This document shows, piece by piece, positions 49,640 through 62,848 of a DNA stretch of 64,000 nucleotides (position 1 is the first letter of the stretch; each line of letters begins with the position of its first letter). A model generated the notes under the pieces. That model did no database searches. It saw only the letters and a program-made list of their open reading frames with translations, and was not told the origin of the DNA. Source of the DNA: an uncultured Clostridia bacterium (GTDB taxonomy: Bacteria > Bacillota > Clostridia > Saccharofermentanales > Saccharofermentanaceae). The stretch lies in assembly GCA_947167045.1 (NCBI GenBank), contig CAMVGO010000004.1, positions 1 through 64,000 on the forward strand. The letters are read 5' to 3'. A program made the position numbers and the translations under genes.

Positions 49640-51508
49640 TCAGCGGTTCGCTTTGATGAGCTTATCGAAGTTCTTGCCGTTTACGTCATACATGGTGTGA
49701 CCCAGCTCGGCAAGGCGTGATTCGATGTGTTCCTGCTCCTTGGGACGCTTGATCTTAAGCGTCGTCGTCTTGATCATCTCTTCTTCGGAGAATACGTAGT
49801 TGCGTACTATCTTATACTGGGGCATCGTGTGGTTTGCGTAGTGGACCTTATCGTTCAGATATGCCTCGACCTGACCGTCATCAGCTTCGGTGGCAAGACC
49901 AAGCTCGGCGCCGATAACCTTACGGTTGATAAGGAGCTTGGCGCAGATGTCGATGGCCTCACGGTCGTTCTTGTTGCCCCAGACGAAAGCCTCGGTAACA
50001 CCTTTGATCTCTGTAAGGACTGCCTCGATCTCCTCGGGGAAAGCCTTCTTGCCGTTTGTAAGAACGATCATGGACTTAACACGGCCGGTGATGTGGATGG
50101 AACCTGTCTTATCGATGTATCCCATGTCGCCCGTATGGAACCACCCGTTCTCATCGATGGCTTCCTTCGTGGCTTCCTCATTCTCATAGTAACCGAGCAT
50201 GACGCACTCGGACTTGGTAAGGATCTCGCCTACTGCCTTTGGGCCAGTGCCCTCGGCGTCTATCGCGACAGTGATGCCTGCCATAGGTCGTCCGACGGAG
50301 CCGTGAACGTCGCAGACTTCAGTATTGACCGAGATAACGGGCGAAGTCTCGGTAAGACCATAACCCATATAGAACTGGAGACCGAAATCCGTAAAAGCGT
50401 CAACATACTTCTTGTCGATGCCGGCGCCGCCGATAACGACCATACGGAAATTGCCTCCGAGCTTATCCAGGATGTCCTTGAAGACATTCTTCCTTATGTC
50501 TATGCCGCACTTTCTAAGGAAACGCGTGACCGGCCTTGCAATTGCAATAACCCTCTCCTTGCCTGATGCCTTGATGCCGTCTTCGATCTTTTCATAGATA
50601 TTCTCGAAAAGCAACGGCACGGAAATGCAGACATCCGGCTTCCATTCCTCCATATTCTTAACGATATATCTCAGACCGTCACACATGCAGATGCACGCAC
50701 CGCATGACAGAATGAAGAAATCGCACGTATTCTCGAAAGTGTGATGCAGCGGCAGGATCGAAAAAGCCCTGTCGCCCCTTCTTACGTCGAGAGTCTGTGC
50801 TATGGCATAAACATTTGAGACTATGTTGTTGTGAGAGAGCAGAACGCCCTTGCTCATCGACGTCGTGCCCGAAGTAAAGAGGATTATCTTTGCCTCATTG
50901 GGATCGATCGTCGTATCCATGAACTTATTGTCACCGGCCTCAATGAAGACATTGCCTTCCTTTATGAGGTCGTAGATATCGGCAAAGCGCTTATCGTCTT
51001 CAGGCCATGTATCGTCCTTGCTCTTGCCGGAAAGTCCTTCCTTATAGAAGATGACGAACTTTTCGAGCGGTATGTCGAGCTCGCCGGACTTGATCTTGGC
51101 AGCAATCGAAAGCATCATCTTGTGGTGCTTGTGATGATAAAAGATAACGCGGCTCCTGGACCTGATAAGGAGCTGGATGAGCTCATCTTCAGGAAGAGCC
51201 CTGTCTAAAGGAACTCCGACGGAACCAGATGAAAGGATCGCGTTATAAGAAACAAACCACTCGTAAGCATTCTCGCCTACGACGGCAAGTCTGTCTCCTG
51301 CATACTCACTGTTAAGGATATATGTGGCAAGGCCTTTGATATCATTGCCATATTCGAAGAAGCTCCGGTGGACCTCGGAAAGCTTCGGAGAACGTCTGAA
51401 GATAAACGCATCAAGTTCAGAATACTTGGAACAGGTACGGACAACGAGATCTCTTAAGTCCGTAAATCTCTCAGCTGTAAATACAGGCGTACCCTGAACA
51501 GGATTCAT
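49640..51508 (-). CDS. AMP-binding long-chain acyl-CoA/ACP ligase
   Basis: IILFTSGTTSMSKGVLLSHNN, MGYGLTETSPVISVN, GWFHTGDMGYID. Confidence 0.92.
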   Translation of the reverse strand: MNPVQGTPVFTAERFTDLRDLVVRTCSKYSELDAFIFRRSPKLSEVHRSFFEYGNDIKGLATYILNSEYAGDRLAVVGENAYEWFVSYNAILSSGSVGVPLDRALPEDELIQLLIRSRSRVIFYHHKHHKMMLSIAAKIKSGELDIPLEKFVIFYKEGLSGKSKDDTWPEDDKRFADIYDLIKEGNVFIEAGDNKFMDTTIDPNEAKIILFTSGTTSMSKGVLLSHNNIVSNVYAIAQTLDVRRGDRAFSILPLHHTFENTCDFFILSCGACICMCDGLRYIVKNMEEWKPDVCISVPLLFENIYEKIEDGIKASGKERVIAIARPVTRFLRKCGIDIRKNVFKDILDKLGGNFRMVVIGGAGIDKKYVDAFTDFGLQFYMGYGLTETSPVISVNTEVCDVHGSVGRPMAGITVAIDAEGTGPKAVGEILTKSECVMLGYYENEEATKEAIDENGWFHTGDMGYIDKTGSIHITGRVKSMIVLTNGKKAFPEEIEAVLTEIKGVTEAFVWGNKNDREAIDICAKLLINRKVIGAELGLATEADDGQVEAYLNDKVHYANHTMPQYKIVRNYVFSEEEMIKTTTLKIKRPKEQEHIESRLAELGHTMYDVNGKNFDKLIKANR

Positions 51509-51664
51509 ACATTACCTCCATCGGCCCCGCCTCCCCTTTTACGGGGAAACAGCGCAACTAAAAAAATATATCATATTTGAGAATGAAATGGCAATAAGTC
51601 GCTAAATTCACATTTTGTGTTATATTAGTTGCGGATTATAGTCAGAAACCTTTCAGGAGCATAT

Positions 51665-52444
51665 ATGTCTGAAGAAGAAAAAGCAATAAATAAAGAAGAA
51701 ATTACATCCAAAGACACAGAGTCCAAGATGTCCCGTGCGGATCACCATAAGCATCTGGACGAGAAATACCCCACGAAACGCGGTTTCTGGGACGTTGTAG
51801 CCAAGGACGGCTTCCTGCTCCTGACTCACATCCTCTGCGACATGAAATGCATAGGCAAAGAGAACTTCCCTAAGAACAATCCATACGTCGTCGCTTCCAA
51901 CCATCAGAGTTATCCTGACGGCGTCCTTATAATCGATTATCTGCCCAAGGGCCACTTCAAGTGGATGTGCTGCCTCGCAGCTTCCGACCTTGAGACCAAT
52001 CACGGCAAACTCGGCCGTCTCATAATGAGAGTAGGCAGAGGCATCGCGGTTGACCGTTACGGAAATCCCGTCAGAGGTCTCATCAAGGCCAAAAAGGAAG
52101 TCGAGAAAGGCAATATCTGCTTCGTCTTCCCCGAAGGCACGAGATCCCACACGGGCAAGCTCGCCGAGATGAAGGACGGAGCCGCTTACCTTGCGATCAA
52201 GGCCGGTGTTCCCATGGTCCCCGTCTATATCGCCGGCGCATACCAGATCTGGCCGAGAACATCCAAGAAGCCTCATCCGCTCAACGGTTTTCACCGCCGC
52301 AAGATCAGGATCTACGTCGGCGAACCCATGCACGGCGAGGATTATGACAATGATGCGCACAAGATGACCGAAGCTTTGTCAGCCTGGATGCACAAACACG
52401 AAGATCTCTACTGGGATCCCGAGACAAATTTCGAAGCAAAGTAA
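51665..52444 (+). CDS. plsC: 1-acyl-sn-glycerol-3-phosphate acyltransferase (PlsC family)
   Basis: ASNHQSYPDGVLI (HX4D), VFPEGTRSHTGKLAEMKDGAAYLAIKAGVPMVPVYI; start MSEEEKAINKEE behind AGGAG. Confidence 0.9.
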   Translation: MSEEEKAINKEEITSKDTESKMSRADHHKHLDEKYPTKRGFWDVVAKDGFLLLTHILCDMKCIGKENFPKNNPYVVASNHQSYPDGVLIIDYLPKGHFKWMCCLAASDLETNHGKLGRLIMRVGRGIAVDRYGNPVRGLIKAKKEVEKGNICFVFPEGTRSHTGKLAEMKDGAAYLAIKAGVPMVPVYIAGAYQIWPRTSKKPHPLNGFHRRKIRIYVGEPMHGEDYDNDAHKMTEALSAWMHKHEDLYWDPETNFEAK

Positions 52445-52541: not shown

Positions 52542-55202
52542 TTACGAATAAAGTCCTCCGAGGAACTCCGTTGCAAACTGTATCTTGGTCGGACTGAACA
52601 CTTCCCTGCTCTCCTCGGTCGGATAGATGAAGAACGTGTCATCATAGGTAGACAGCGTGACACACGGTCCGAACTTTCCCCTGTAATCGTATTCTGTGTG
52701 GATCGATACCATGGACTTCGCCGGGAACTTCAGTGTCTCGTACTTTTCGGTCCTGTAGTTATTGAACGACAGTGCAAATCCGTCTTTATCATGAACGAGC
52801 CTTCCCTCACCGCAGTCTATGAAGTTTACGGCATTGGGCAGAGCCTCGACCCTTACGGGTATGTCGAGCTTATAAGTGCCGTTTCTGATCTCGTCATGGA
52901 CAAAACCTCTCTGCCACTCGTACCAGTCGGGAATGTGGATCTTTTCACCCGCAGAAGAATGAAGGACGCCAAGCTCATCCATCTCGTATGAATCGCCGCA
53001 GCATGAACAGAGTATCCTGCTGCCTTCAGACCTCATCGCGAAATCAGTTCCGCACTTCCTGCATCTGTACAGCGGATAGTGCAGACCTTCGGCTCTCCAT
53101 TCGTCATCGATGACGATCTTGTTTTCGAGCTGATACTTATACTCATCGTAAGTGAGTTCTTTGGAAATGCGGGACAGGATCTCGTCCACGGAAAGCTTAC
53201 CGATCTCATCCTGAGTAACGACGCATTTTAGCTCGGCATGGAGACGCGCACCCTTTCTCTCCTTGAGATTCCATATCGGCTGCTGGAGATAGTTGCCCTG
53301 CATGTTCAATGTGACGACGGGAACCTTCAGCATCTTGGCGAGCTTTGCTATGGACGGCGTAAGGTGTGAATTCGTACCGACATTCGCATATCGGGCCTCA
53401 GGATAGATGACCATGATGTCGCCGCGTTTTATGACGCGCGCTATGTTCCTTATGAGCGACTGGTCGTTAATGAACTTGCGCGTTCCGAGGCATCCTGCCT
53501 GACGGTATATCCACTCACCGAAATTCTCGAATCCTTCGAGCTCGGAAATGTAGTTCGCGCGGTAAGGCTTAAGCGCCAGCGGAGTTACGTAGAAATCCAT
53601 AAAGGAATTGTGAGAGCCGTATACCAGGAACGGAGGCTTGATGCCTTCCATGTTCTTCTTCTCGATCTTGAGCTTATAAGGAGATACGGCAAGCTTGCAG
53701 AGCAGCCACATCAAAGGCAGGAAGATAATGTTCTGCCTCGGCGGCACCTTCGCTCTGTCAAAGGGCTTCTTATCCGGGCTCGCATAAGTGTCTCTTCTTA
53801 CATAGCGGCGGATACCCGGGATCTTGCAGAGTAGATAGTACAGTATCGCCGTAAAGAACAGTGACGCGCCCGTGGGAGTCAGCATGAAGAGTATCTTGTT
53901 GTGAACGACGCTCTTGATCGGGTCGTAGATGATAAGCGAGAACGCGAAGCCCAGCGCTAGGCAGACCGCGCCTACAATATTAAATCCCTTGGAATATACA
54001 TATGCGTTGTGGCCTTCCTCTTCATAAGCGCTCTTAAGGTCGATCTTCTGTTTTCTTACGAAGAAGAAGTCAACGAAGAGCAGTGCGGCAAGAGGCGCAT
54101 AAACGCATGCACTTATCGTAAGGAAGCTTCCGAAATATTCTTCGATCTTCCCCCATACGCAAAGGATGCCGACATAAAGACCGAGTACGAGCACGAGCAC
54201 TTTATAGGACGATTTCTTGAATGTGGATTTGAGCATTACGCCGTAGATATATGAACCTACAGCCTGTGTACCGATGTTCGCGAAAGCTACCAGAAGGAGC
54301 GACGCAAGCGCAAGGATCGGAGTTGATAACGTAGCCAGCATGAGCGTAGGGTCCTCAACCATCTGGCCTGTTACATACTGCATCGCGATGGCCATGACGG
54401 CACCGACAACAACGAAGAAGGATCCGGCGGCGCCCTGTCCGAGAACGCCCGCGTAATAACCTGATTTCTCTGACTTGCAGAGTCTCGGAACTTCGGCCAT
54501 GCCTCCGACAAGCGTTATGACGAAAGCAAAATTAGCTTCAATATTGAGCACATAATTAACCGTCTTGTCAGCATCACCCGCGAGCTCCGGCTGGTAATTC
54601 CAGATGACATCCATTGGCACGGAAGTAAAGCCGACAACGACGACTGCCACACCTACGAGAAGGAGGAGCGGCACAAGGATCCTCGTGGTCCATGTGATCG
54701 TTCCAACACCCCTTAACGCGATGACCGTTCCGATTATCACGCAGGAAAGACTGAGCACTAAATGCGCTCCGTTAAAAAGATGCACGCCGAACAGCGCAAG
54801 CAGGTTTTCCATCGAACTTGCGAAAAGTTCACAGCACACCGCATACCAAGGGAAATTAACGATAATGATAATGACCGTTACGATCTTAACACCCTTTGTT
54901 CCGAACACGCTTCGGAGCCATATCCATATGTCTATTCCGTATCTGACTGACATGATTACCGGAAGCTGGTAGATCATGAGCATGAATATCGCTGCGAGGA
55001 ATGCACCGATCAAAAGCTGCTTAAATCCGACGAGTGTTGCAAGGTAGGAACCCTGCGTGTAACTCCATGTTGCGATGCAGTATCCCGAAAGCACCAGGAG
55101 AGCATCGATAAATCCGTATTTGCGTTCTTTCGGAAGAACCGGCAAGGTCCCGCAATAGACCTCATTCTCTATTTCTTTGTTTACGTCATGCTTACGGCTC
55201 AC
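52542..55202 (-). CDS. fusion protein: NCS1/cytosine-permease-like transporter + PlsC acyltransferase + zinc ribbon + beta-rich C-terminal domain
   Basis: 886-aa uninterrupted ORF. aa 1-~457 polytopic (YGFIDALLVLSGYCIATWSYTQGSYLATLVGFKQLLIGAF...); C-terminal FLVYGSHNSFMDFYVTPLALKPY (HX4D), MVIYPEARYANVG, zinc ribbon CRKCGTDF...CSCCGDSYEMD; GTG start. Confidence 0.87.
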   Translation of the reverse strand: MSRKHDVNKEIENEVYCGTLPVLPKERKYGFIDALLVLSGYCIATWSYTQGSYLATLVGFKQLLIGAFLAAIFMLMIYQLPVIMSVRYGIDIWIWLRSVFGTKGVKIVTVIIIIVNFPWYAVCCELFASSMENLLALFGVHLFNGAHLVLSLSCVIIGTVIALRGVGTITWTTRILVPLLLLVGVAVVVVGFTSVPMDVIWNYQPELAGDADKTVNYVLNIEANFAFVITLVGGMAEVPRLCKSEKSGYYAGVLGQGAAGSFFVVVGAVMAIAMQYVTGQMVEDPTLMLATLSTPILALASLLLVAFANIGTQAVGSYIYGVMLKSTFKKSSYKVLVLVLGLYVGILCVWGKIEEYFGSFLTISACVYAPLAALLFVDFFFVRKQKIDLKSAYEEEGHNAYVYSKGFNIVGAVCLALGFAFSLIIYDPIKSVVHNKILFMLTPTGASLFFTAILYYLLCKIPGIRRYVRRDTYASPDKKPFDRAKVPPRQNIIFLPLMWLLCKLAVSPYKLKIEKKNMEGIKPPFLVYGSHNSFMDFYVTPLALKPYRANYISELEGFENFGEWIYRQAGCLGTRKFINDQSLIRNIARVIKRGDIMVIYPEARYANVGTNSHLTPSIAKLAKMLKVPVVTLNMQGNYLQQPIWNLKERKGARLHAELKCVVTQDEIGKLSVDEILSRISKELTYDEYKYQLENKIVIDDEWRAEGLHYPLYRCRKCGTDFAMRSEGSRILCSCCGDSYEMDELGVLHSSAGEKIHIPDWYEWQRGFVHDEIRNGTYKLDIPVRVEALPNAVNFIDCGEGRLVHDKDGFALSFNNYRTEKYETLKFPAKSMVSIHTEYDYRGKFGPCVTLSTYDDTFFIYPTEESREVFSPTKIQFATEFLGGLYS

Positions 55203-61573: not shown

Positions 61574-62848
61574 TCAGGATTCAGAGGAAGTCTTCCCTTT
61601 AGAAAGTTTATAGAGCTCTTCGGCGGCAAGTCTCGTCTTGGCAACGATGTCCCCTTCCTTCGGGAAGCAGAAATACAGGCAGTCGTTGGTACCGATGGAG
61701 ACTATGTCGCCGATCTCATACCAGTAGTAATCCGAATTGACGCTGTAGGATGCGCCCGGAGACTGCTCGTAATGAAGCTTCCCGTCACAGCCGTCGAGAA
61801 CAAAGCCGTTTACATCATGATGGAGTTTTCCGCTCCCCACCATGTACAGAGCTTTGGAGTCCTTTAATATCGCTATGTCGCAGTTTACATCGAGCTTGTA
61901 AGTTCCGTCCTCTATCTCTTTCTTGATCTGTTCCCTTTCCCAGGCGAACCAGTCAGGAATATGCGTGAACTTAGGCTCAACATTGATGCCATTGAGCCTG
62001 CCTAATGTATCGAGTTCATACTCGGCCCCACATTCCTCACACTTAAGGAGGATCCCCTTGCCTATGGTCTTTCCTTCCGTCATGCAGTGAGGACATTTAT
62101 AAAGGATCCTGTTAAGACCGTCAGCCCTGAAAGGCTCGTCGATCTCTATGTTATTGTCCTGCTGCCACTTGAAATAATCGAGCGTGAATTCCCTGTCAAG
62201 GATCTCGTCTATCTGCCTTACTTTGGTATTTGCAAGTTCTTCCGGAGTAAACAGACACTTCATCACACAGGATACTTTCACGTCACGCTTTTGCAGATTG
62301 TTATAGAGCGGATCTCTCGAAAAGGCACCGTATGTGGTGATCATGACTACAGGGTGCTTGAGTTTTTTCAGGAGAACCCCGAGTCTTCTCGGGATCCTGG
62401 TCCCCGTTCCGTCAAGCGAATAGCCGGCTTCAGGATACATAAGGACACTTGCTTTATTGACGTTTAAGGCATGGTCCATATCCGAAATAAGAGTCATGTC
62501 CGAAACGAACTTTCTCGTCGGAATGCATCCTAAGGATCTCATCAGTCCCTCTTTTCCGACCAGGGCATCAGATGTACAGACGATGCTGAAAGGACGGCCT
62601 TTAAGGACTTCAAATGCTATGGCAAGATCCGTAAAGCTGCAGTGGTTCATGAGGATCATCCACGGACCGTCGCCCGCTCTTTCCATATCCTTTTTCTCAC
62701 ATGTGAAGCTGACCTTCTTAAGCTCGCCGCCTAAAGCGATACGTGCTATGCCTGCAAGAAGTCCGGATGGCTTTTTTGGCTTTTTATGTTCCCAAGAAGG
62801 CAGCGCCATGACCGCTTCGTAATCCATCGTCTTTGTCTTTATCTTCAT
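61574..62848 (-). CDS. PlsC-type acyltransferase with zinc ribbon and beta-rich C-terminal domain; stand-alone paralogue of the C-terminal half of the 52542-55202 fusion
   Basis: MILMNHCSFTDLAI (HX4D), LMYPEAGYSLDG, CPHCMTEGK...CEECGAEYELDTLGRL, HIPDWFAWEREQIKKEIEDGTYKLDV. Confidence 0.86.
   Translation of the reverse strand: MKIKTKTMDYEAVMALPSWEHKKPKKPSGLLAGIARIALGGELKKVSFTCEKKDMERAGDGPWMILMNHCSFTDLAIAFEVLKGRPFSIVCTSDALVGKEGLMRSLGCIPTRKFVSDMTLISDMDHALNVNKASVLMYPEAGYSLDGTGTRIPRRLGVLLKKLKHPVVMITTYGAFSRDPLYNNLQKRDVKVSCVMKCLFTPEELANTKVRQIDEILDREFTLDYFKWQQDNNIEIDEPFRADGLNRILYKCPHCMTEGKTIGKGILLKCEECGAEYELDTLGRLNGINVEPKFTHIPDWFAWEREQIKKEIEDGTYKLDVNCDIAILKDSKALYMVGSGKLHHDVNGFVLDGCDGKLHYEQSPGASYSVNSDYYWYEIGDIVSIGTNDCLYFCFPKEGDIVAKTRLAAEELYKLSKGKTSSES

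Follow-up and report, generated by a model that had tools for sequence, protein, structure and literature searches.

An NCS1-like transporter fused to a PlsC-type acyltransferase in Clostridia, and its possible role in the import and acylation of a choline-type compound

Among the closest known systems to the gene described here is LplT-Aas, described from gram-negatives, in which a PlsC-type acyltransferase is complexed with a flippase for lysophospholipids, the two being apparently encoded as one ORF in some bacteria (PMC11416262). The acyl-[ACP]--phospholipid O-acyltransferase fusions of NCBIfam PRK08633 and PRK06814 are grouped with it as closest known. In lic1-type pathways the LicB choline permease or a BCCT protein stands beside LicA-LicC, and the tiny single-transmembrane (TM) protein MAP17 is paired with SGLT2, a transporter of the LeuT fold. 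Uptake of glycerophosphocholine (GPC), a breakdown product of choline phospholipids, followed by its acylation is found in yeast (Git1 and Gpc1), Xanthomonas and mitis streptococci, and the same order of events is proposed below for the fusion. A bacterial GPC importer and a GPC-specific acyltransferase have both been described as unidentified (PMC6805115, PMC10434233).

In the window (the whole stretch of 64,000 nucleotides that was analysed, from an uncultured Clostridia bacterium) the minus strand from 55202 to 52542 reads as one uninterrupted frame of 886 codons, with a GTG start where many orthologues have ATG. An earlier note on this DNA had given these coordinates and a single 886-aa ORF correctly, although the gene lies on the minus strand and a plus-strand reading of 52542-55202 yields many stops. 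Residues 1-470 (53793-55202; this and all further parts of the gene are on the minus strand) are an NCS1-like transporter of 12 TM helices and LeuT fold, ending close to the position of about 53830 that the note had put forward, and are followed by a linker, residues 471-493 (53724-53792; RRD...PFDRAKVPPRQN), to which the stop and start codons of split genes map when fused and split forms are aligned. The PlsC-type acyltransferase domain occupies residues 494-690 (53133-53723), a zinc ribbon residues 708-750 (52953-53081; Cys714, Cys717, Cys732 and Cys735), and a helix, beta-barrel and terminal helix residues 757-885 (52548-52934). Both Pfam families expected by the note in one protein are found above their cut-offs in the same frame, Transp_cyt_pur (PF02133) at residues 21-426 (55.8 bits, cut-off 23.5) and Acyltransferase (PF01553) at residues 513-634 (29.7 bits, cut-off 23), and the motifs GSHNSFMDF, YPEARYANVG and CxxC...CxxC and the unbroken junction peptide are present in the translation as it had quoted them.

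AlphaFold2 modelled the full-length protein with a pLDDT of 86, the transporter part forming a 12-helix LeuT fold, and residues 477-886 with a pLDDT of 93. In Foldseek searches the solved structures closest to the transporter half were CodB (TM-score 0.83) and Mhp1 (0.75), and that closest to the PlsC half was the Thermotoga maritima PlsC (5kym, E 4.6e-7). The tail was modelled as a seven-strand barrel with a C-terminal helix, a topology which fits the PH-domain superfamily, and it matched the PH domains 3voq and 2kie weakly (E about 0.02); matches of the C-terminal module to PilT-like ATPases were dropped for their low TM-scores. H531 and D536 of the HX4D motif, P601, E602 and the four ribbon cysteines are invariant in 53 aligned relatives, and the protein looks catalytically intact. 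Block III, which is PEGTR in the usual PlsC/LPLAT enzymes, is YPEARY in this subfamily, its PE being invariant in the same alignment.

The fusion resembles LplT-Aas in that a PlsC-type acyltransferase at the cytoplasmic face is encoded next to, or in one frame with, a membrane transporter. However, LplT is an MFS flippase whereas the transporter here is LeuT-fold and NCS1-like by Foldseek, Aas combines PlsC with an acyl-ACP synthetase whereas the fusion has PlsC and no AMP-binding domain by Pfam, and the system here also has a zinc ribbon, a tail that is PH-like and a small TM protein as partner. In stating that no transporter-acyltransferase had been described, the earlier note overlooked this system (PMC11416262), and the principle of coupling import to acylation is already known, LplT-Aas being the same idea built from different parts. 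A literature search confined to open-licence papers found no account of NCS1 and PlsC proteins as a pair or a fusion, of the small TM family, of an NCS1 subfamily linked to amines or of choline transport by an NCS1 protein, which is weak evidence that these are new.

Beside the fusion gene, and kept in the genus, lie an acyl-CoA/ACP ligase gene with an AMP-binding domain (49640-51508, minus strand) and, divergent from it, an ordinary PlsC gene (51629-52444, plus strand), which as a pair of individual genes recall the two enzymatic parts of Aas. A stand-alone paralogue of the PlsC-ribbon-tail module of the fusion (61574-62848, minus strand; 33% identity) lies about 6 kb away from it, and similar stand-alone copies occur in most genomes of the genus.

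Directly upstream of the fusion, a 51-codon gene (55354-55199, minus strand) encodes a protein that has a single TM helix behind a charged N-terminus, its TGA overlapping the GTG of the fusion (GTGA). The earlier note missed both this gene and the stand-alone paralogue. A profile of the small protein matched upstream of 65 of 67 transporter loci, a set which includes a few same-species near-duplicates, and the two exceptions are technical (a contig starting inside the transporter, and a frameshifted locus); with all four of the more distant loci from other classes, one by a weak match, the total is 69 of 71. The profile found no small gene at any of about 30 PlsC-only loci, suggesting that the small protein is a partner of the transporter and not of PlsC. 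No Pfam or NCBIfam family was matched by it or by any of the homologues tested, and we regard it as a new candidate transporter subunit. MAP17 and SGLT2 offer a parallel, but here the putative partner is encoded directly upstream in an overlapping gene and matches no Pfam or NCBIfam family.

Of 85 genomes from the source genus, about 31 carry the full-length frame, and in the GTDB contig set it was found in approximately 25 species of Saccharofermentans-like rumen and gut bacteria, including Ruminococcaceae bacterium AB4001, an apparent isolate whose record carries no MAG label. Fused forms also occur in two other families (L121; L142-L144), and the fusion that the note had taken to be genuine is borne out by this spread. 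A search of plasmid records gave no match that would point to plasmid spread. The two halves are encoded by separate neighbouring genes, in unchanged order, in Ruminococcus, Flavonifractor, Family XIII and some Lachnospiraceae, where the two genes abut, lie a short distance apart or overlap. A tree built from the transporter half places the fused forms in one group (23 rows, SH-aLRT 90) requiring one change, and fused and split forms together in a larger one (SH-aLRT 92), though the trees were quick searches and some branches are long; the single fused group suggests that an adjacent gene pair was fused, probably once. Repeated independent fusion, suspected from the spread over three families, was set aside in view of this clade. 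The note had also allowed that homologues might always be two genes and the ORF an artefact; in fact fused and split forms both exist.

The tree of the PlsC half is less orderly, for PlsC-only genes branch at several points within the paired group and also within the fused group. Across varied gene neighbourhoods, PlsC is fused or immediately adjacent to 48 of the 48 transporters of the PlsC-linked clade in the tree, none being seen without it, while PlsC is often alone, and so it appears that the transporter needs the enzyme but not the reverse. Inside the fused group, two loci (L062, 4521-5912 in genome G002, and L063, 5007-6272) have a PlsC module with no adjoining transporter, and the transporter model matches nothing in G002, a draft genome that is 93% complete; these are apparent secondary losses of the transporter half. 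Likewise, loci L082 and L094 share the neighbours of L072 without its transporter and small gene, which is a natural deletion of the two. On inspection, the neighbours of PlsC-only genes were mixed, with no common theme.

Membership of the transporter in the NCS1 family is partial, since it has the fold and the Pfam match but scores only 63.8 bits against a curated NCBIfam cut-off for NCS1 (TIGR00800) of 353.1; the genome of the window, in an assembly that is 79% complete, contains no other NCS1-family gene. With Mhp1 and CodB it shares the fold, the 12 TM helices, the TM3 tryptophan and probably part of the Na2 site, where A308 and T312 are invariant and Mhp1 S312 is replaced by G311. W119 and F225 align with the aromatic pair that sandwiches substrate in CodB (W108/F204), W119 being invariant and F225 replaced by V, C, L or M in some relatives. 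Unlike Mhp1 and CodB, it has the small TM partner, relatives beside choline and methylamine genes, and a glutamate in TM6, E222 (54539-54537), which is invariant in 21 of 21 diverse members of the subfamily, aligns with a valine in Mhp1 and is a candidate ligand for a cationic group.

The evidence on its substrate comes from the genes beside relatives of the transporter. A sister clade, 43-45% identical and with the same small gene but no PlsC, adjoins a wHTH-LicC-LicA protein in all nine of its loci in the tree and at one from another class (L173), making 10 of 10. The closest PDB entries to that protein are a CTP:phosphocholine cytidylyltransferase (1jyk, E 2e-38) and a choline kinase (4r77, E 5e-30), and LicD is found close to two sister-clade loci, while one has a glycerophosphodiesterase nearby. 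The arrangement is that of the lic1 pathway, except that an NCS1-like protein stands where the choline permease would be, the slot otherwise taken by transporters of other families such as LicB and BCCT; the fusion clade goes with PlsC instead of LicA-LicC. Several of these loci (L120, L123, L146-L151, L173) encode the winged-helix (wHTH) domain, LicC and LicA as a single polypeptide, which may be a choline-activating enzyme that regulates itself. The genome of the window has a homologous operon (L157, contig C23, 6146-10253) in which that slot is filled by a BCCT transporter, a family which carries betaine, carnitine and choline. That operon comprises a wHTH-LicC-LicA fusion, a second LicC and the BCCT gene, with putative choline-binding-repeat proteins around it, and phosphocholine decoration of the cell surface is probable in this organism.

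Two more distant relatives of the transporter adjoin an MttB-family methyltransferase and corrinoid proteins, and MttB-family enzymes are known from the literature to demethylate trimethylamine and quaternary amines. In one locus (L176, 10493-11476 onward) an MttB gene near the NCS1-like transporter and small gene has an in-frame TAG, probably read as pyrrolysine, at the place expected for it. Three other distant members speak neither for nor against: L152 lies beside an FGGY kinase, L153 beside aldehyde and alcohol dehydrogenases, and L174 has no choline, methylamine, kinase or dehydrogenase neighbours of the kinds named for the others. Taken with the NCS1 score, the choline and methylamine genes beside these relatives indicate trimethylammonium or choline-like substrates and not the nucleobases of the earlier note; the argument from gene neighbours is a strong one where the sister clade is concerned and an indirect one for the PlsC-linked clade, for which it is carried over from what the relatives handle. 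Between the PlsC-linked and the kinase-linked clade the divergence is greatest at residues 223-235 of TM6, where 9 of 13 positions differ (hypergeometric p 2e-7, for a stretch picked after looking at the data). CodB binds its substrate in TM6 (PMC9379551), and related but different substrates for the two clades are therefore plausible. One genome (G005) carries both transporter types, and the simplest reading is that the PlsC-linked clade takes a different but related substrate.

The reading that we prefer, with a probability of roughly 0.4, is that the fusion imports a choline-type acyl acceptor and then acylates it at the membrane; the coupling of import to acylation suggested in the earlier note is thus still the best model. 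Together with the small single-TM protein, the NCS1-fold half would import a small trimethylammonium compound, presumably inward and coupled to Na+, and the PlsC half, tethered at the inner face of the membrane, would acylate it with acyl-ACP or acyl-CoA as the likely donor, so that a head group from the environment would pass straight into a membrane lipid. The most likely acceptor would be GPC, since it is a choline-type compound that a glycerophosphate acyltransferase could plausibly accept, giving lyso-PC and possibly going on to PC. More tentatively, and with considerable doubt, the fusion with its small TM protein may unite the missing bacterial GPC importer and GPC acyltransferase in one polypeptide. 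It would then belong to a so far undescribed NCS1-fold subfamily for trimethylammonium compounds, in which what becomes of the substrate decides whether the partner is choline kinase/cytidylyltransferase, a corrinoid methyltransferase or an acyltransferase. To our knowledge GPC is larger than known NCS1 substrates, which counts against it, and the glycine for serine in the Na2 site and YPEARY in place of PEGTR would count against import and acylation more generally. Such PlsC proteins also occur in many genomes without the transporter, and so their main acceptor may be an ordinary lysophospholipid.

In an alternative that we consider unlikely, the protein is an analogue of LplT-Aas, its NCS1-fold half flipping lysophospholipids (perhaps lyso-PC) inward for re-acylation by PlsC. 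There is precedent for this in the adjacency, complex and fused ORFs of LplT-Aas (PMC11416262). A membrane lipid acceptor would suit the PlsC family and the PH-like tail, and an acyl-ligase and a second PlsC gene adjoin the fusion in the genus, but the sister transporters associate with soluble small amines. Moreover, the transporter has a LeuT fold with a conserved NCS1-like pocket, and we know of no lipid flipping by that fold.

It is distinctly unlikely that the protein takes up an osmolyte of the choline or betaine type and leaves it unacylated, with the PlsC half serving to sense or adjust the composition of the membrane, even though the subfamily is tied to quaternary amines, the tail is PH-like and LeuT-fold osmolyte transporters such as BetP bear cytoplasmic regulatory domains. 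The invariance of the catalytic residues in 53 sequences argues against this and, together with the retention of PlsC when the transporter is lost, suggests that PlsC is an enzyme in its own right. An ordinary NCS1 transporter for a nucleobase, hydantoin or vitamin with an incidental acyltransferase would account for the PF02133 match, the Mhp1/CodB fold and the retained aromatic pair, but we regard it as improbable, because the score is far under the curated cut-off, no Rfam riboswitch match was seen near the fusion gene and no nucleobase or vitamin gene recurred among the neighbours, the relatives are partnered by choline and methylamine genes, and linkage to PlsC in 48 of 48 cases is not incidental. 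The chance that two genes have been read as one through an assembly or annotation artefact is negligible, since, although most of the genomes are metagenome bins and a frameshift breaks one fused locus (L061), the same unbroken frame recurs in dozens of independent assemblies, in AB4001 and in three families.

With import and acylation of a choline-type acceptor as the preferred model, there are now named genes with which two matters can be tested, namely which proteins import and acylate GPC in bacteria, a gap stated by others (PMC10434233, PMC6805115), and what cargo is carried by some of the divergent NCS1-like transporters of gut Clostridia. If the assignment to quaternary amines is true, the metabolism of choline and trimethylamine in gut and rumen would gain uptake genes, and if import and acylation are indeed coupled, this coupling would have evolved here with a transporter different from that of LplT-Aas.
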